DNA from: an uncultured Clostridia bacterium
Lineage (GTDB): Bacteria > Bacillota > Clostridia > Christensenellales > UBA1750
NCBI GenBank assembly: GCA_904393115.1
Contig: CAJFMX010000014.1
Span: 1 to 64,000, forward strand
DNA length: 64,000 bases
Direction: 5' to 3'
Part shown: one piece after another, positions 54,992-64,000 of the stretch
How positions within the stretch are numbered: the first letter of the stretch is position 1
Layout of the letters: every line of letters starts with the position of its first letter
The notes under the pieces: generated by a model
Databases searched by the model: none
Seen by the model: only the letters and a program-made list of their open reading frames with translations
What the model was told of the DNA's origin: nothing
Translations under genes and position numbers: made by a program

Positions 54992-56203
54992 TTACTTGTC
55001 GTAGCGGCGGTAGCGCTCGATGATCTCAAAGCTCATGCGCCCGTTGTGGTAGGGGCAGATGCCGTCGTTGCACTTGTAGGGGTTGCGGGGCTTCTCCGCC
55101 GCAAAGTCGAGGATGGAGAACCAGCCGCCCTTCTCGTGGTCGACAAAGCGCTTGTTGATGAAGTCGAAGCAGTGGAGGGAGGCGTCCAGGAACTTCTCCT
55201 CGCCCGTCATCTCCCAGGCGTTGAGGAAGCCGACGACCGCCTCGTTCTGCTCCCACCAGCTGATGGCCGGGGTGATGTGGCCGGTGCGCGGGTCGTACTC
55301 GGTGAGCATGGCGCCGTCCTCGCGCTGCCCCTGCTCCAGGCAGGCGCGGGCGATGTTCACGCAGGTGTCGCGCGCGGCGCGGTGCGCCTCGGGCTCGCCC
55401 AGGACCTCCGCCGTCTCCATCATCAGCCAGCTTCCCTCGATGTCGTGGCCGAAGGAGATCTCCGGCGTCGTGGGCTTCCAGGCGCGGTCCTGGAAGTAGA
55501 AGTAGTGGTGGATGTCGTGGTCCACGATCTTGTTCAGCATCACGTAGAGCTGCTGGCGCAGGGAATTTCTCGTCTTTGCGGAGTCGTCCACGCGGCACAG
55601 CGCGGTGTAGGCCTCCAGCAGGTGCAGGTGCGTGTTCATGGTCTTGACGTCAAAGGGGCTGCGGTTCATGCCCTTGCCCCAGGGATTGACCGTCCAGTCC
55701 GCGCGGCAGCTCTCGTAAAAGCCCTTGTACTCCGGGTCGTAGACGTACTTCTCCAGGCAGTCGCGCGTCTCGACCGCAAGGCGCAGCGCCTCCTGGTCGC
55801 CCGTGGCGCGGCAGTATTCCGACAGGCCGTAGATGGCGAACGCGTTGCCGTAGATGTACTTGTTGTCGTCCAGGACGGCGCCCTTTTCGTCCACGCGGGA
55901 GTACCAGCCGCCGTGCTCGCGGTCGTAGAAGTGCGCCAGGAAGTAGTCGTAGGCGCGCTTGGCGTACCGCAAATAGTTCTCGTCCCCGAGGATGCGGTAG
56001 GCCGAGGCAAACGTCCAGATCAGGCGCGCGTTGAGCGTGATGAACTTGCTGTGCCCGGCCTCGGGCACGTTGTCGTTTGTCACCGCGCCGTAGAAGCCGC
56101 CGTTCTCCTCGTCCACGCTGTACTGCATCCACCAGGGGAGAAGGTTCCCCGTCAGGTCGTCCACGGCCATTTGATAGAGCTTCTTGAATTTCTCCTGCTG
56201 CAT
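54992..56203 (-). CDS. AGE-family sugar 2-epimerase (cellobiose 2-epimerase-like)
   Basis: A 403-residue (alpha/alpha)6-barrel enzyme of the N-acylglucosamine/cellobiose 2-epimerase family. The catalytic histidine regions KTMNTHLHLLEAYTAL, GHDIEGSWLMM and CPYHNGRM align with cellobiose 2-epimerases, as does WWEQNEAVVGFLNA. It should invert C2 of a glucosyl or mannosyl residue, in the cytosol because no signal peptide exists. ATG at 56203 with AGGAGGG. It is divergent from the regulator of the transporter/glycyl-radical locus and may process the same imported sugar. Confidence 0.88.
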   Translation of the reverse strand: MQQEKFKKLYQMAVDDLTGNLLPWWMQYSVDEENGGFYGAVTNDNVPEAGHSKFITLNARLIWTFASAYRILGDENYLRYAKRAYDYFLAHFYDREHGGWYSRVDEKGAVLDDNKYIYGNAFAIYGLSEYCRATGDQEALRLAVETRDCLEKYVYDPEYKGFYESCRADWTVNPWGKGMNRSPFDVKTMNTHLHLLEAYTALCRVDDSAKTRNSLRQQLYVMLNKIVDHDIHHYFYFQDRAWKPTTPEISFGHDIEGSWLMMETAEVLGEPEAHRAARDTCVNIARACLEQGQREDGAMLTEYDPRTGHITPAISWWEQNEAVVGFLNAWEMTGEEKFLDASLHCFDFINKRFVDHEKGGWFSILDFAAEKPRNPYKCNDGICPYHNGRMSFEIIERYRRYDK

Positions 56204-56265
56204 CGCATACCCTCCTAGCGCCATCCTTCACATTGCCCTTTTTTTGACGCGCTGTTTTTTCTTCC

Positions 56266-56470: not shown

Positions 56471-57556
56471 ATGATTAAGCAGATCTACGAACAAGTCTAC
56501 GACTATATCGAGTCCGACGTGCACCAGCGCGCGCCGGGCGAATCCCTGCCTTCCGAGATGCAGTATTCCATGCAGCTGGCCGTCAGCCGCCTGACCGTGC
56601 GCAAGGCCGTGGACGAACTGGTCCGCCAGGGCCTGGTGACGCGCATCGCAGGCAAGGGGCTGATGGTGAGCCTGACCCCTGGCCAGCGGTTCCGCGGCCG
56701 GCTGCTCATCTCCTGCATCTGCATGCCGGGCGACAGCGACCTGTTCCGCTGCGTGCTGGGCTGCATGGATGCGGCGAGCCGTTACCACTACGACTACAAG
56801 CTGCTGAACTTCCCCACCGCGGCGGAGCAGTACCGCGCGGTGCTCGCCGAGGACCTGACCGCCTACGACGGCGCGGTCATCACCTGCTTCGACTCCGAGG
56901 CCGAGCAGTGCACGCTGAACCTGATCCAGCGCGCGAACCTTCCCGTGTGCATCCTGGGCAACGAGCACGAGGGCGTTCCCTCCATCATGAGCGACGACTA
57001 CAACGGCGGGTACCTCATCGGCGACGACCTGGCCAAGCACGGCCACCGGGACATCCTCTTCCTGTCCACGGACCGCCCCGTCGCCGACGTGTCCCGCCGC
57101 CTCAAGGGGTTCTTTCAGGCCCTGCGGGACAACGGCATCGAGCCCAGGGAGGAGCTCGTCCTCAGCGTGCCCGACCCGGGCGTGCCCCTCTTCATCGGGA
57201 CGGGCGCGCTGCGCGACCTGCCCTTTTCCGCCGAGAAATACCTGGAGCGCAAAATCCACTACACGGCGGTCACCGGGCACTCCACGCTGCCCATCGTCAG
57301 CTTCTGCCGCCAGCTCTGCCTGCGCGGCGTGCGCATTCCGGAGGATATTTCCGTCGTCGGCTATGGGGACCAGCCCTACCTTCCCTGGATGAACCTCCCC
57401 CTGACGGGCATCCTCGAGCCCAAATACGAGATGGGCGTCGAGGCCGTCACGCAGATGCACCTCTTCCTCTCCGGCATCCAGGCCTCGATCCAGAGCCGGA
57501 TCGTTCCCGTGCGCTACGTACACCATCGCTCCATCTCCGTCATCGATAAATGTTAA
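56471..57556 (+). CDS. GntR-type regulator with a LacI-like sugar-binding domain
   Basis: This 361-residue protein has a GntR winged helix (about 1-72: PGESLPSEMQYSMQLAVSRLTVRKAVDEL). A periplasmic-binding-protein-like domain follows (about 80-355) with SDDYNGGYLIGDDLAKHGHRDILFL and VVGYGDQPYLPW, the AraR-like fusion. It should bind a sugar and release or bind its operator. Located directly upstream of the sugar transporter and glycyl-radical genes and divergent from the epimerase, it is the obvious local regulator. Confidence 0.9.
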   Translation: MIKQIYEQVYDYIESDVHQRAPGESLPSEMQYSMQLAVSRLTVRKAVDELVRQGLVTRIAGKGLMVSLTPGQRFRGRLLISCICMPGDSDLFRCVLGCMDAASRYHYDYKLLNFPTAAEQYRAVLAEDLTAYDGAVITCFDSEAEQCTLNLIQRANLPVCILGNEHEGVPSIMSDDYNGGYLIGDDLAKHGHRDILFLSTDRPVADVSRRLKGFFQALRDNGIEPREELVLSVPDPGVPLFIGTGALRDLPFSAEKYLERKIHYTAVTGHSTLPIVSFCRQLCLRGVRIPEDISVVGYGDQPYLPWMNLPLTGILEPKYEMGVEAVTQMHLFLSGIQASIQSRIVPVRYVHHRSISVIDKC

Positions 57557-57679: not shown

Positions 57680-59080
57680 ATGACAAAGAAGATCGTTTCT
57701 CTGCTGATGGTATTCGTCCTCGTCCTGGCTTTGACCGCGTGCACAACGAGCACCGAGGCGCCCGCGGACGAGCCTTCCGCCGCGGCGACCGCCGCGCCGG
57801 AGGCGCAGGAGCCCGCGGCCGAGGACCCCGCAGCGGAAACGCCCGCCGCCGAGAGCGGCTCGCCCGCCAAGCCCGTGCCGGAGGAGGGCGCCGTGCTCCA
57901 CTTCATGCACATCTACCCCGAGCACGCCAACGCGATTGAGAAGTCCCTGGAGATCATCCAGCGCGACAACCCCGGCATGGAGATCAATGTCAGCGTCGTT
58001 CCCTGGAACGAGGCGACCAAGAGCATCCAGACCGCGGCGGCGACGGATGAGATGTACGACATCTTCTTCCAGTGGTCGACCCAGGTTCCGGGCTACAACG
58101 ACATCGGCCTGTTGCTGGATCTGACGCCCTACATCGATGACGAGTGGCGCAGCTGGTACATCAACGACGCCGCCCTGGAGGAGTATTCCGACGACGGCAA
58201 GGTGCTGGGCATGCCCCTGCGCGGCACCGCGGTCTTTGTGATCTACAACGTGGATATGTTCGAGGAGAACGGCTGGGAGATCCCCACCACCCAGGAAGAG
58301 CTGGTCGCGCTGTGCGACACCATACTGGAAACGGGCCTCATCCCCATCTCCGCGCCCGGCACGCCCAACGGCTTCCAGGTGGAGTCCATCCGCGGCAGGG
58401 TGTTTGACAACATCGTCTACATGAACGGCCTGATCGAGGACCCGGAGCGCCTGACCGACCGCAAGACCGAGTGGAACGGCCTGTATGCCGAGTCCGCCGA
58501 GATCGTCAAGGGCTGGTACCAGAAGGGCTACTTCGGCGAGAACGCCTTCGGCCTGGGCCGCGAGGAGGGCCAGACCATCTTCGTCACCGAGGATTCGGCC
58601 ATGCTGCTGTGCAACAACAACGAGCTGGTCGCGCTGCGCGAGCTGAACGAGGCCGCCAACAACTTTGAGATCGGTTCCTTCTCCTGGCCCGCGCCTGCCG
58701 CCTCTGACCGCGCCATGTTCACCGCGGCCGGCTTCGGCGATGGCTGGGGCGCCTGGTCCGGCACGAAGTATCCGCAGGCCTGCGCCGCGTTCTTCCGCAG
58801 CCTGGCCGGCCAGGAGGCCATGACCATCTGGGCCAACGAGGAGTTGTGCATCGTCCCCTCCAACCAGGTCGAGTACGCGGACCCCGTCCAGGGCGCGTTC
58901 GCCGCGCAGTATGAGGACGGCGGCTACAAGGTCGTCGCCGACTACAACACCGGCAACAAGGGCGACCTGACCGGTCAGGCCTTTGTCGACTACTGCCTGA
59001 GCGACACCATGACCGCCGACGAACTTGAAACGCAGGTGGAAGAGATCACCGCGCGCACCATTGCCGACGCAGAAGAATAA
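57680..59080 (+). CDS. ABC transporter sugar-binding lipoprotein
   Basis: A 466-residue extracellular solute-binding protein of the carbohydrate family 1 type. The signal peptide ends in the lipobox LTAC (Cys about 21), followed by an Ala/Glu/Pro-rich linker of about 50 residues. The mature domain begins near 75 (VLHFMHIYPEHANAIEKSL) and shows IFFQWSTQVPGY and AAFFRSLAG. It captures a sugar or oligosaccharide outside the cell for the two permeases downstream. AAGGAGGAG ribosome binding site; a hairpin follows the gene. Confidence 0.92.
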   Translation: MTKKIVSLLMVFVLVLALTACTTSTEAPADEPSAAATAAPEAQEPAAEDPAAETPAAESGSPAKPVPEEGAVLHFMHIYPEHANAIEKSLEIIQRDNPGMEINVSVVPWNEATKSIQTAAATDEMYDIFFQWSTQVPGYNDIGLLLDLTPYIDDEWRSWYINDAALEEYSDDGKVLGMPLRGTAVFVIYNVDMFEENGWEIPTTQEELVALCDTILETGLIPISAPGTPNGFQVESIRGRVFDNIVYMNGLIEDPERLTDRKTEWNGLYAESAEIVKGWYQKGYFGENAFGLGREEGQTIFVTEDSAMLLCNNNELVALRELNEAANNFEIGSFSWPAPAASDRAMFTAAGFGDGWGAWSGTKYPQACAAFFRSLAGQEAMTIWANEELCIVPSNQVEYADPVQGAFAAQYEDGGYKVVADYNTGNKGDLTGQAFVDYCLSDTMTADELETQVEEITARTIADAEE

Positions 59081-59161: not shown

Positions 59162-60064
59162 ATGCAGCGAAAGCCTCTGAAGCTGGAGACGCAGCGCAAG
59201 ATCCTGGGCTATTTCTTCCTTCTCCCCATCGTCGTGATGCTGACCGTCTTCATGTTCTACCCCATCGTAAAGTCCGTCGTCATGAGCTTTACCAACTGGT
59301 CGGGCATGACGGACGACTGGGAGTGGGTGGGTCTCAACAACTACATCCGCATCTTCACCAACATGCCGGAATACTGGCGCGCCATGAAGGTCAACGTCAT
59401 CTACGCGCTGATTGCGACCGCGGTGCAGCTGACCCTCGGGTTCCTGCTGGCGGTCCTGGTCATCAACATGCGCCCCCGCTGGCAGAGCTTCTACAAGATC
59501 GCGCTGTATCTGCCGGTCATCATCCCCGCCGCGGCGATCTCCGTCATGTGGCGCTACATCTACACCCCGGAATACGGCCTGATCAACCAGTTCCTGCGCG
59601 CAATCGGCCTGGAGGAGCTCTGCCGCGCATGGACGGCGGACCCGGATACGGCCCTGGGCGCGGTCATCGTGACCAACACCTGGCGCTACGCGGGCTTTAC
59701 CATGGTCCTGTACTACGTGGCCATGCTCGACATCCCCAAGGACGTCCTGGAATCCGCGCAGATCGACGGCGCGAACCGCTGGCACCTGATCCGCTACTTC
59801 TACCTGCCGCTGACCCGCGGCACGACGGAGATCAACCTGATCCTCACCATCACCGGCTGCCTCCGCGCGTTTGACATCTTCTACCTGCTGACCTCGGGCG
59901 GCCCGGGCACCAGCACAAAGGTCGTCAGCATGTGGATCATGGAAACCGCCTTCCAGAGCTATAAGTACGGCCGTGCGCTGGCCATGTCCATCGTGCTGTT
60001 TGTGATCGTCGTCTTCACCATGGTCATTTTCCGACTGATTTTGACCCCGAGAGAAAAGGAGTGA
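59162..60064 (+). CDS. ABC sugar transporter permease (MalF/UgpA type)
   Basis: A 300-residue membrane protein with six predicted helices. It carries the EAA loop that docks the ATPase (VLESAQIDGANRWHLIRYFYLPL, about 198-220). The N-terminus contains the YFFLLPIVVMLTVFMFYPI helix. It pairs with the next gene. No ATPase gene is present, so a shared MsmK-like ATPase from elsewhere must energise the transporter. Confidence 0.93.
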   Translation: MQRKPLKLETQRKILGYFFLLPIVVMLTVFMFYPIVKSVVMSFTNWSGMTDDWEWVGLNNYIRIFTNMPEYWRAMKVNVIYALIATAVQLTLGFLLAVLVINMRPRWQSFYKIALYLPVIIPAAAISVMWRYIYTPEYGLINQFLRAIGLEELCRAWTADPDTALGAVIVTNTWRYAGFTMVLYYVAMLDIPKDVLESAQIDGANRWHLIRYFYLPLTRGTTEINLILTITGCLRAFDIFYLLTSGGPGTSTKVVSMWIMETAFQSYKYGRALAMSIVLFVIVVFTMVIFRLILTPREKE

Positions 60065-60069
60065 GAAGC

Positions 60070-60939
60070 ATGTCGTCGAATCCTATACCTGTACCGCGCG
60101 CAAAGCCTCATGCCAAACGGCATTGGACGGTCGGCGCCGTCGTGGAGCAGATCCTGCTCCTCCTCATGGCGGTCTTCGTGCTCTATCCCCTGTTTTTCGT
60201 GTTGCTGACCTCCTTTAAGACCAACTCGGACGTCATCCTCAACCCCTTTGGCATCAGCACGTTTGAGCCGCAGAACTACATCACTGCCTGGTTCACGGGC
60301 AAGGTGGGCTCCTACCTGCTCAACTCCGTCATCACCACGCTGGTCACCCTGGTCATCCAGGTCGTCATCATCGTGCTCGCCGCCTACGCCTTTGGCAAGC
60401 TCAAGCCCTGGGGCTACAATGCGCTCCTTTCGCTGCTGCTGATGACCATGTTCGTCACCTCCGAGATGACCACGGTTCCCAACTACATCACCATCCGCGA
60501 CATGGGGCTGATGGGCACGCGCTGGTCCCTCATCATTCCGTACGTGGCCAGCGGCCTGATCACCGGTACCTACATCCTGACCAACTTCGTGCGCGAGCTT
60601 CCCAAGGAGCTGGACGAGGCCGCGCGCATCGACGGCGCGGGCATCTTCAAGATCCTCTGGAAGGTCGACCTGCCCATGATCACCCCGGCCCTGGCCACGC
60701 TCGTCATCTTCAACTTCAACGGCGTGTGGAGCGAGTTCTACTGGGCGCTGATCGTCATCAAGGACGAGGCGCTCAAGACCCTTCCGCTGGGCCTGATCAA
60801 TTTCCAATCCCAGTTTACATCCGACTACGGCGTGCTGACGGCGGGGCTTGTGATCCTGACCGTGCCGGTCGTCGCGGTGTACCTGTTCTTCTCGCGCTAC
60901 TTCATCGCGGGCATCAGCGCCGGTGCGGTCAAGGGGTAA
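60070..60939 (+). CDS. ABC sugar transporter permease (MalG/UgpE type)
   Basis: A 289-residue second permease with six helices and the EAA loop (ELDEAARIDGAGIFKILWKV, about 185-204). The ATG at 60070 is chosen because AAGGAG lies six bases upstream; a GTG nine bases earlier overlaps that ribosome binding site. 5 bp separate it from the first permease. The glycyl-radical activase follows after 36 bp. Confidence 0.93.
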   Translation: MSSNPIPVPRAKPHAKRHWTVGAVVEQILLLLMAVFVLYPLFFVLLTSFKTNSDVILNPFGISTFEPQNYITAWFTGKVGSYLLNSVITTLVTLVIQVVIIVLAAYAFGKLKPWGYNALLSLLLMTMFVTSEMTTVPNYITIRDMGLMGTRWSLIIPYVASGLITGTYILTNFVRELPKELDEAARIDGAGIFKILWKVDLPMITPALATLVIFNFNGVWSEFYWALIVIKDEALKTLPLGLINFQSQFTSDYGVLTAGLVILTVPVVAVYLFFSRYFIAGISAGAVKG

Positions 60940-60975: not shown

Positions 60976-61866
60976 ATGGGGGTTTTGACGGCGATACAGC
61001 GATTTTCGCTGCACGACGGGCCGGGCATTCGGTCCACGGTCTTCTTTAAGGGCTGCAACATGCGCTGCGCCTGGTGCCACAACCCGGAAACGCTCTCTCC
61101 CGCGCCGGAGGTTCTCTACTACGAGAGCAAGTGCGTGGGCTGCGGGGCGTGCGCGGCGGTGTGTCCGTCCCACACGGTTGTCGGCGGCAAGATGGTCTAC
61201 GACCGCAGCAAGTGCGACGACGGGGGGCGCTGCGCGCAGGTCTGCTTCTCGGGCGCGCTGGAGGTCTGCGGGTTTGAGGCAGACGTGGACCGCGTGCTCT
61301 TTGAGGTCATGCAGGACGAGGCGTACTACGCGCGCTCCGGCGGCGGGGTCACGCTCTCGGGCGGCGAGGTCCTGCTCCAGCCGGCCTTCGCGCTGGACCT
61401 GCTGCGCGCGCTGCGCGCGCGCGGCGTGCACACGGCCATCGAGAGCAATCTCAACGTCCCCTTCTCCGTCCTGGAGCCGCTGCTCCCCGAACTGGACCTG
61501 GTGATGTGCGACCTGAAGACCTGGGACGACGGCCTGCACCGCAAGTACACGGGCGTCTCCAACGCGCGCATCAAGGAGAACATCGCGCGCCTGAAGGAGA
61601 CGGGCGTCCCGGTGATCGTGCGCACGCCCGTCATCCCCGGCGTAAACGACCGCCCGGAGGAGATCTCCGCCATCGCGGCCTTTGCCGCGCAGCTGCCGAA
61701 CCTCCTCTACTATGAATTGCTCAACTTCAACCCCTTGGGCTCGTCCAAGTACCTGGCCCTGGACGTGGAGAACGCCTTTGCCACGGCGCGGCCGCTGCCC
61801 GAGGAGAAGATCCAGTCCCTTGCGGACGCCGCGCGCGGCGTCTGCCCCTCGGTGCGCGTTGGATAA
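60976..61866 (+). CDS. Glycyl-radical-enzyme activating protein (radical SAM)
   Basis: A 296-residue radical SAM enzyme that abstracts a hydrogen from the partner enzyme's glycine. The radical SAM cluster ligands are Cys27, Cys31 and Cys34 (GCNMRCAWC). A ferredoxin insert follows: Cys53/56/59/63 is a complete 4Fe-4S site, while the second group has only Cys80, Cys86 and Cys90 with Gly83 in place of the second cysteine. TLSGGEVLLQ is the SAM-binding GGE motif. It is encoded immediately (12 bp) upstream of its presumed target. Confidence 0.93.
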   Translation: MGVLTAIQRFSLHDGPGIRSTVFFKGCNMRCAWCHNPETLSPAPEVLYYESKCVGCGACAAVCPSHTVVGGKMVYDRSKCDDGGRCAQVCFSGALEVCGFEADVDRVLFEVMQDEAYYARSGGGVTLSGGEVLLQPAFALDLLRALRARGVHTAIESNLNVPFSVLEPLLPELDLVMCDLKTWDDGLHRKYTGVSNARIKENIARLKETGVPVIVRTPVIPGVNDRPEEISAIAAFAAQLPNLLYYELLNFNPLGSSKYLALDVENAFATARPLPEEKIQSLADAARGVCPSVRVG

Positions 61867-61878
61867 GGAGGAACGACC

Positions 61879-64000
61879 ATGAGAGACCGCATCAACAAGC
61901 TGCCGCCCGACGCGGACGTGAGCTACCGTGAGCGCCTGCGCATCCTTCGGGAGCGCAAGATCGAGGACACGAAGGACAAGGCGGGGATCCAGTCCTGGGC
62001 CGACGGCGACGACTACGGCGCCATCAAGCCCCCGGATGACTACCACTTTGAACCCATCTTCAACCACCCGGCCGGCACCTTCGTGGGCTACGACGGGTGG
62101 AGCGAGAACTTCTACCACATGATGGCCGAGCATCCCGTGTTCATCGACCCCTGCGACGCCTTTGCCAACCGCTGGATGAACTGCATGGCCTGGACGCGGC
62201 CCATCAAGTTCCACCCGGACCTGAAGTACGACCACCTGAAGCCCGAGCAGAAGAAGTACGGCATCGTCTCCGGCATCGGCGCGGACGCGCACTTCGGCGG
62301 CGACTACGCCATCGGCCTCACCCTGGGCTGGGGCGGGCTGCTCCAGAAGCTCGCGCACTACCGCGCGCGCAACCCCGGCCACGACGACTTCTACGACGCA
62401 GAGGAAAAGACCATCCACGGCATTCAGGTCTGGATGCGCCGGACGGTCGAGGCCATCGACAAGGCCATCGAGGCCGAGAGCCATCCCGTGCTGCGCGAGA
62501 ACCTGCGTCAGATGCGCGAGGTCAACGAGTACCTGATCGAGGGCGCGCCCCGCACGCTGCGCGAGGCCTGCCAGTGGATCTGCTGGTTCAACACCTCCTC
62601 CCGCGAGTACAACCGCGACGGCGCGGGCTGCCAGCTCGACGAGCTGCTGCGCCCCTACTACGAGCGGGATCTGCAGGCGGGCCGCATAACGGCGGACGAG
62701 GCGAAGTACTACCTCGCATGCCTGCTGCTCAACGACCCGCACTACTACCAGCTGGGCGGCCTCTCGCCCGACGGCCACGACATGGTCTCCTACTTCTCCT
62801 ACATGATCCTGGAGGCCGCGGACTGGCTGGACTCCTCCTGCAACCTGACGGTGCGCGTGCACGACAACATGGACCGCCGCTTCCTGCACACGGCGGTGGA
62901 CTACCTGTTCAAGAACAAGAACGGCTGGCCGCGCTTCTCCGGGGACAAGGCCCTGTCCGAGGGCTTCATGAAGAAGGGCTATCCCGTGGAGCTGGCCCGC
63001 CAGCGCGTGGCCGTGGGCTGCCACTGGATGAGCCTGCCGGGCCTGGAGTACACGCTCAACGACTGCGTCAAGATCAACTGCGCCAAGGTCTTCCGCCTGG
63101 CCCTGGACGAGATGATGGCCTCCGACGGCGAGAAGAGCACGGAGGAGCTCTGGCGCCGGTACGACGCGCACATGGCGCGCGCCGTGCGCGTCACGGCCGA
63201 GGGCCTGATGTTCCACCTGGAAAACCAGGTCAAGAACGAGCCGGAGCTCATGCTCAACCTGCTGAGCCACGGGCCCGTGGAGCGCGGCCTGGACATGTCC
63301 CACGGCGGCGCGCAGTACTACAACATGTGCATCGACGGCACGGGCATCGCCACCATCGCCGACTCCTTTGCAGCCATCGCCCAGCGCGTGGAGCGCGAGC
63401 ATCGCCTCACCTTTGCGGAGATGTACGAGGCGGTCAAGAGCAACTTCGCCGGCCCGCAGGGCGAGTACATCCGCATGATGCTGGCGGCCTCCGAGCGCTA
63501 CGGCGGCGGCGAGACGCTGGGCGACCACTGGGCCAAGCGCATCAGCGCCTCCTTCACCGACCAGGTCAACGCCATGGACGAGGTCTTTGCGCCCGTGAAG
63601 TTCATCCCGGGCTGGTTCTCCTGGTCCAACACGATCGTGCTGGGCAAGGAGGTGGGCGCCACGCCCAACGGCCGCCGCGACGGCGAGCCCATCAACCACG
63701 GCGCGAACCCGCACCCCGGCTTCCGCCGCGACGGCGCGCTGACGGCCATGACCAACTCGATCTGCGCCATCCAGCCGGGCTACGGCAACACCGCGCCCGT
63801 GCAGCTCGAGCTCGATCCCGGCATGGCCCGCGGCGAGGAGGCCGTGGACAAGATCTGCGACTACATCCTCACCCTCTTCTCCAAGGGCGGGACGCTGCTC
63901 AACATCAACATCATCAACGCCCAGCAGATCCTCGCCGCAAACGAGAACCCCGACCTCTTCCCGGACCTGGTGGTGCGCGTCACGGGCTTTACGGCCTACT
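61879..64000 (+). CDS. Glycyl radical enzyme (PFL-like), 3' end beyond the window
   Basis: 707 codons are visible and the frame is open at the window end. The glycyl radical loop is present at the very end, VVRVTGFTAY with Gly703, and the thiyl cysteine is Cys381 in VAVGCHWM. The 322-residue distance between the two fits the family. Glycyl radical dehydratases and lyases usually have Gly-Cys-Val-Glu at the active loop; here Val-Glu is replaced by His382-Trp383, and it is not the Cys-Cys pair of pyruvate formate-lyase either. The substrate is therefore unknown, though the co-transcribed sugar transporter points to a carbohydrate-derived compound. The ATG at 61879 has AAGGAGG. Confidence 0.9.
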   Translation, partial: MRDRINKLPPDADVSYRERLRILRERKIEDTKDKAGIQSWADGDDYGAIKPPDDYHFEPIFNHPAGTFVGYDGWSENFYHMMAEHPVFIDPCDAFANRWMNCMAWTRPIKFHPDLKYDHLKPEQKKYGIVSGIGADAHFGGDYAIGLTLGWGGLLQKLAHYRARNPGHDDFYDAEEKTIHGIQVWMRRTVEAIDKAIEAESHPVLRENLRQMREVNEYLIEGAPRTLREACQWICWFNTSSREYNRDGAGCQLDELLRPYYERDLQAGRITADEAKYYLACLLLNDPHYYQLGGLSPDGHDMVSYFSYMILEAADWLDSSCNLTVRVHDNMDRRFLHTAVDYLFKNKNGWPRFSGDKALSEGFMKKGYPVELARQRVAVGCHWMSLPGLEYTLNDCVKINCAKVFRLALDEMMASDGEKSTEELWRRYDAHMARAVRVTAEGLMFHLENQVKNEPELMLNLLSHGPVERGLDMSHGGAQYYNMCIDGTGIATIADSFAAIAQRVEREHRLTFAEMYEAVKSNFAGPQGEYIRMMLAASERYGGGETLGDHWAKRISASFTDQVNAMDEVFAPVKFIPGWFSWSNTIVLGKEVGATPNGRRDGEPINHGANPHPGFRRDGALTAMTNSICAIQPGYGNTAPVQLELDPGMARGEEAVDKICDYILTLFSKGGTLLNINIINAQQILAANENPDLFPDLVVRVTGFTAY

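Follow-up and report, generated by a model that had tools for sequence, protein, structure and literature searches.

Gene organization of the locus

The window, a 64,000-nucleotide stretch of DNA from an uncultured Clostridia bacterium of the gut, ends inside a gene for a glycyl radical enzyme (GRE). The open reading frame starts at 61879 on the forward strand, a short way after a Shine-Dalgarno-like AAGGAGGA, and occupies 61879 to 64000, where it is still open. In the genome contig (C14) the stop codon is reached at 64059, giving a product of 726 aa, and a GNAT acetyltransferase gene lies 3′ of it before the contig ends at 64799. The protein has both GRE domains, PF02901 (E=6e-94) and PF01228 (E=2e-10), and its predicted structure has a mean pLDDT of 86. 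The thiyl cysteine, Cys381, is present in the Cys loop, while Gly703 (codon 63985 to 63987, +), within RVTGFTAYF, falls in the same alignment column as the radical Gly765 of HypD. Both residues are invariant across the clade of relatives described below.

The gene that ends 12 bp upstream of the GRE start (60976 to 61866, +) encodes a GRE-activating radical SAM enzyme of 296 aa, which scores 320 bits against TIGR02494 (cut-off 174). Since both domains, the radical Gly, the thiyl Cys and a closely linked activase are all present, the protein can be assigned to the GRE superfamily. The initial annotation had described a functional-looking GRE with its own activase, and the Pfam domains, the HypD alignment and the TIGR02494 score all agree with that description. 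Formation of a glycyl radical on Gly703 is predicted from the conserved residues and the activase.

Further upstream on the forward strand are two ABC importer permeases of the BPD_transp_1 family (60061 to 60939 and 59162 to 60064), the extracellular solute-binding protein of the importer (SBP_bac_1; 57680 to 59080) and a regulator that combines a GntR DNA-binding domain with a LacI-type sugar-sensor domain (56471 to 57556), so that the sugar-type importer and regulator first proposed for this locus are indeed there. The operon has no kinase or PTS gene. Divergent from it is a gene for an AGE-superfamily sugar 2-epimerase, similar to cellobiose 2-epimerase (54992 to 56224, −). Within this genus, three genomes also have the epimerase beside the GRE; it was set aside as proof of a mannose substrate, since the linkage does not extend beyond that genus and additional copies are present in every genome. 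GH130 and GH38 enzymes are encoded elsewhere in the window’s genome, away from the GRE locus, as is an ordinary pyruvate formate-lyase (PFL).

The same genome carries a second GRE of the GCHW type on contig C13 (L006:5767-7482, −), which lacks its N-terminal part. Its frame opens with a stretch that looks like the last part of an ABC solute-binding protein, which may reflect fusion, decay or an assembly chimera, and a gene of the MR/MLE family lies upstream. Relatives of the window’s family carry a GCNW paralogue (L103:6320-14130, L104:196-8067 and L105:4526-12413) in a layout of the same design: a GntR/LacI regulator, an activase, the GRE and a divergent set of binding protein and permeases.

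The Cys loop and the active-site residues

The distinctive feature of the enzyme is its Cys loop, GCHWMSLPGLE (63016 to 63048, +), in which the codons TGC CAC TGG at 63019 to 63027 specify Cys381 (63019 to 63021), His382 (63022 to 63024) and Trp383 (63025 to 63027), and Glu390 is encoded at 63046 to 63048. In GRE eliminases the residue two positions after the thiyl cysteine (Cys+2) is the glutamate of the CXE motif, which is described as conserved among them and whose replacement abolishes activity in IslA (E470Q) and in HypD (E436Q) (PMC8473560, PMC7077986). Glu occupies this position in HypD, CutC, HPAD, PflD, YbiW and almost every other enzyme sampled outside the PFL type, HPAD and CutC being later additions to the alignment and tree. 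The window protein has CHW instead, and its relatives have C[HNS]W in 30 of 30 sampled members, hence the name CXW clade. Trp383 and Glu390 are invariant in all 30 members, while Trp at Cys+2 occurred in none of the 18 other GREs of the first alignment. Its presence in the clade is not due to chance. The loss of the CXE glutamate, which the initial annotation had read from this one protein, is shared by all 30 sampled members of the clade.

The accompanying suggestion that His382 replaces the glutamate as the catalytic base has fared less well. The window protein has His at Cys+1, as such a role would require, and so do 14 of the 30 members, but the other 16 have Asn (13) or Ser (3), and the position has changed at least seven times on the tree. 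Moreover, Cys+1 is Val, Ile or Leu, usually Val, in most CXE enzymes sampled, where it is the residue at Cys+2 that contacts the substrate. Because Cys+1 varies so freely, a conserved base role for His382 is very improbable. Judged from the alignment, the substitution that needs explanation is Glu to Trp at Cys+2, not the His at Cys+1.

Several other residues of the presumed pocket are conserved, as assigned by alignment at about 20-25% identity. His138 (62290 to 62292, +) occupies the column of HypD His160, the partner of the CXE glutamate that is proposed to tune it, and is His in all 29 members that have a residue there. Asp286 (62734 to 62736, +), in the column of HypD Asp339, is Asp in 30 of 30. 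The clade-specific invariants include Y244, D286, Y289, R376, E390, H607 and Q642; the Y244 column is mostly Glu in other GREs. The column of D395 we take to be that of a catalytic Asp of glycerol dehydratase.

If the protein were a GRE that had degenerated or become regulatory, with no catalytic turnover, the absence of a residue essential in both IslA and HypD would be explained. Such a protein would hardly be expected to retain the Cys, the Gly, a linked activase and many further invariants across a divergent clade, and this reading is considered extremely improbable. The retained residues argue for a competent enzyme.

Distribution and relationship to other glycyl radical enzymes

Relatives with 40 to 96% identity are found in Christensenellales, other Clostridia, Spirochaetota and Paenibacillus, and relatives with 52 to 53% identity are carried on plasmids of Flammeovirga and Persicobacter, which are marine Bacteroidota. 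Clade members are uncommon, occurring in 3 of 399 genomes, the window’s own included, in a survey of its phylum; cultured members include Chakrabartyella piscis, Neglectibacter timonensis and Flammeovirga kamogawensis. Among 300 genomes, a score search returned no intermediates between the clade and other GREs, with the truncated second copy at 694 bits and the best non-member down at 275 bits.

All three trees, one computed with FastTree and two in brief IQ-TREE runs under a mixture model (the second of which included HPAD and CutC), separate the 30 members sampled from the other GREs by a long stem with full support. The trees, built without BSS, GD and IslA sequences, support the clade itself rather than any particular point of attachment to the superfamily; where PFL paired with the clade, this was put down to long branches. 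The separate cluster anticipated for GCHW proteins emerges from both the trees and the score gap, with C[HNS]W rather than GCHW alone as its mark. It takes in none of the characterised enzymes sampled, whose inclusion would have counted against the original proposal. By its sequence, the CXW clade is a distinct, uncharacterised branch of GREs, apart from every characterised GRE sampled. Literature searches, which reached few subscription papers, found no earlier description of it.

No curated GRE enzyme model claims the window protein, which scores 67 to 232 bits against cut-offs of about 680 to 1150. The NCBIfam equivalogs for HypD, CutC, HpsG/HpfG, HPAD, IAD and PRK09983 give 107 to 200 bits (cut-offs 1000 to 1150), and the PFL model TIGR01255 gives 67 bits (cut-off 994.2). 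Like the CXW clade, PflB-type PFL is a GRE that lacks the CXE glutamate, but PFL has adjacent cysteines, where the window protein has Gly-Cys-His. HypD shares with the clade the His160 and Asp339 columns, although its CXE glutamate, Glu436, is essential and the window protein reaches just 176 bits against the HypD cut-off of 1100. The aminoacyl radical enzymes, in which Ala, Ser or Thr replaces Gly (PMC11528403), are also uncharacterised noncanonical branches of the superfamily; since Gly703 is retained, identity with them was rejected, and the CXW clade is altered in the Cys loop instead.

The best match among solved structures, by both profile and fold, is PflD (PDB 8id0, 8yjo). With the clade profile, PflD comes first in the PDB at 268.7 bits, with a second PflD entry at 242, followed by an archaeal enzyme, CutC and GD at 238 to 227 bits; the alkyl/arylsuccinate synthases (BSS, ASS), glycerol dehydratase and IslA, at 101 to 228 bits, all lie below PflD. 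In Foldseek, PflD is also at the top, with propanediol dehydratase and others near behind. PflD cleaves 1,5-anhydromannitol-6-phosphate, a manno-configured cyclic sugar derivative, and YbiW cleaves 1,5-anhydroglucitol-6-phosphate (PMC12441222). The small lead of PflD gives mild support for a sugar-like substrate but is not proof of one. The Cys, the radical Gly and the H138 and D395 columns are common to PflD and the clade, and the two differ in that identity is about 20-25%, PflD is longer and it has a CXE loop (GCVELSIPG) where the clade has Trp. Identity with PflD was therefore rejected, the clade being fully supported as separate. YbiW likewise acts on a sugar derivative and keeps the H138 column, but it has the CXE motif (GCIE) and its own branch in the tree.

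The missing CXE glutamate could also mean that the enzyme is not an eliminase at all, and instead a C–C lyase, a decarboxylase or an isomerase acting on a sugar-derived compound, as PFL too works without that residue. The adjacent cysteine pair of PFL is absent, though, and the PFL model scores very low; the structure and profile searches put eliminases first, and the arylacetate decarboxylases have the CXE motif. A non-eliminase reaction is thus regarded as quite unlikely, and radical elimination is preferred.

Genomic neighbourhoods across the clade

In seed searches of 48 loci, which miss distant family members and genes beyond contig ends, an activase lies near the GRE in 40, Gfo/Idh/MocA oxidoreductases occur in 25 and ABC permeases in 13. 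The expectation that the cluster would share its neighbours is borne out in part: the activase, the ABC importers and the Gfo/Idh/MocA oxidoreductases recur, but the remaining partners differ from one subclade to another. Most loci that have enough flank contain transporters, regulators or enzymes of a carbohydrate type, and genes related to mannose turn up in separate lineages. A mannose-6-phosphate-isomerase-like protein is found in six loci, ManD-family proteins in three and UxuA with UxaC in two. GH47 occurs in both Bacteroidota loci, with GH92 in Flammeovirga; L043 has an MGH1-like hydrolase and L106 has GH38 together with GH2, although GH38, being common in these genomes, was set aside as evidence of enrichment.

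GH130 lies within 10 kb of the GRE in four loci (L026, L097, L098 and L100), and in L100 it is 238 bp downstream and the sole copy in a 3.6-Mb genome. Since the 12 genomes tested have, on average, about one GH130 copy each, four such loci look like more than expected, for a theme that was noticed post hoc and in loci that are partly non-independent. The mannose theme differs between subclades.

One alternative is that the enzyme is a radical eliminase for another class of compound, such as an amino, sulfonated or osmolyte-type molecule, with the sugar-related neighbours being incidental or serving the uptake of a conjugate. GRE eliminases collectively use many small molecules, the neighbours do vary by subclade, and some loci have hexuronate, amidohydrolase or TTT-transporter genes. 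Set against this is the recurrence of carbohydrate-type genes in most of the adequately flanked loci, which makes such a substrate rather unlikely and favours a carbohydrate.

Individual loci have further features. In L045 (10285-12169), L047, L054 and L056, the order is activase, GRE, a bicupin-like protein and the mannose-6-phosphate-isomerase-like protein; an AraC regulator lies close to them, often together with a NagB-like gene. The bicupin-like protein, which follows the GRE in this one subclade, has no Pfam match, and its low-confidence model (pLDDT 57) points only to a cupin fold. In Flammeovirga and Persicobacter, a conserved protein of 136-139 aa with no clear family is encoded directly 3′ of the GRE (L097:22092-22502, L098:22100-22519). 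In ruminant-gut MAGs, the CXW GRE adjoins a very divergent second GRE of 712-715 aa, whose loop, GCGE, keeps the CXE motif (L050:5058-7202, L052:5041-7176, L057:5057-7198), and a single activase lies between the two; the pair may possibly perform two radical steps of one pathway. A CXE-loop GRE with its activase is also present, with transposases near, on a plasmid of Acinetobacter towneri (L099:7536-10911), with a similar match in Moraxella osloensis. Acinetobacter and Moraxella are usually regarded as aerobic, and a GRE is odd in such organisms.

Proposed function and mechanism

The most likely function of this competent CXW-clade enzyme, put at about an even chance, is that of a radical eliminase that cleaves a C–O bond in an imported, unphosphorylated carbohydrate, with acid-base work done by H138 and acidic residues retained or acquired by the clade. 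This reading is favoured because the radical residues stand beside a linked activase, an ABC importer, a GntR/LacI regulator and an AGE epimerase; because H138 is kept together with the clade-specific D286, E390, Y244, Y289 and R376; because the clade is fully supported and its scores stand sharply apart from those of other GREs; and because Gfo/Idh/MocA oxidoreductases and mannose-related genes recur at its loci and PflD provides the nearest solved structures. Since the window’s operon lacks a kinase or PTS, an unphosphorylated substrate is favoured, whereas the PflD substrate is phosphorylated by an adjoining PTS; the CXW clade has ABC importers. From this evidence we infer that the substrate may be a sugar, a glycoside, an anhydro-sugar or a sugar acid. 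If one configuration has to be named, a mannose-type one is the best, though tentative, guess.

The reaction may be pictured as follows. The adjacent ABC importer would bring in the carbohydrate, and the activase (60976), by homology, would put the radical on Gly703, from which it would pass to Cys381. The Cys381 thiyl radical would then abstract a carbon-bound hydrogen from the substrate, after which the adjacent C–O bond would break and the hydrogen would be returned. In place of the CXE glutamate, H138 is predicted to carry out the acid-base work with D286, D395 and E390 as candidate partners, while W383, Y244, Y289 and W582 may make up an aromatic platform on which the sugar ring packs. 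In its broadest form, as a GRE branch spanning several phyla that cleaves C–O bonds in free sugars or glycosides without a carboxylate, relying on His138, clade acids and the aromatic platform and possibly manno-specific, the proposal is conceivable but on balance doubtful; if true, it would add a new class of step to anaerobic sugar degradation.

Biological significance

The clade is of interest because the residue it lacks is essential wherever this has been tested, and because the adjoining binding protein makes the substrate findable. As a deep, Trp-bearing branch with its radical apparatus fully retained, it offers a natural experiment on the purpose of the CXE glutamate, and the neighbouring solute-binding protein gives direct experimental access to the substrate. 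If that substrate is a sugar, the PflD and YbiW pathways, which were described only recently, would be joined by an oxygen-sensitive way in which anaerobes of the gut and the sea break down carbohydrates.
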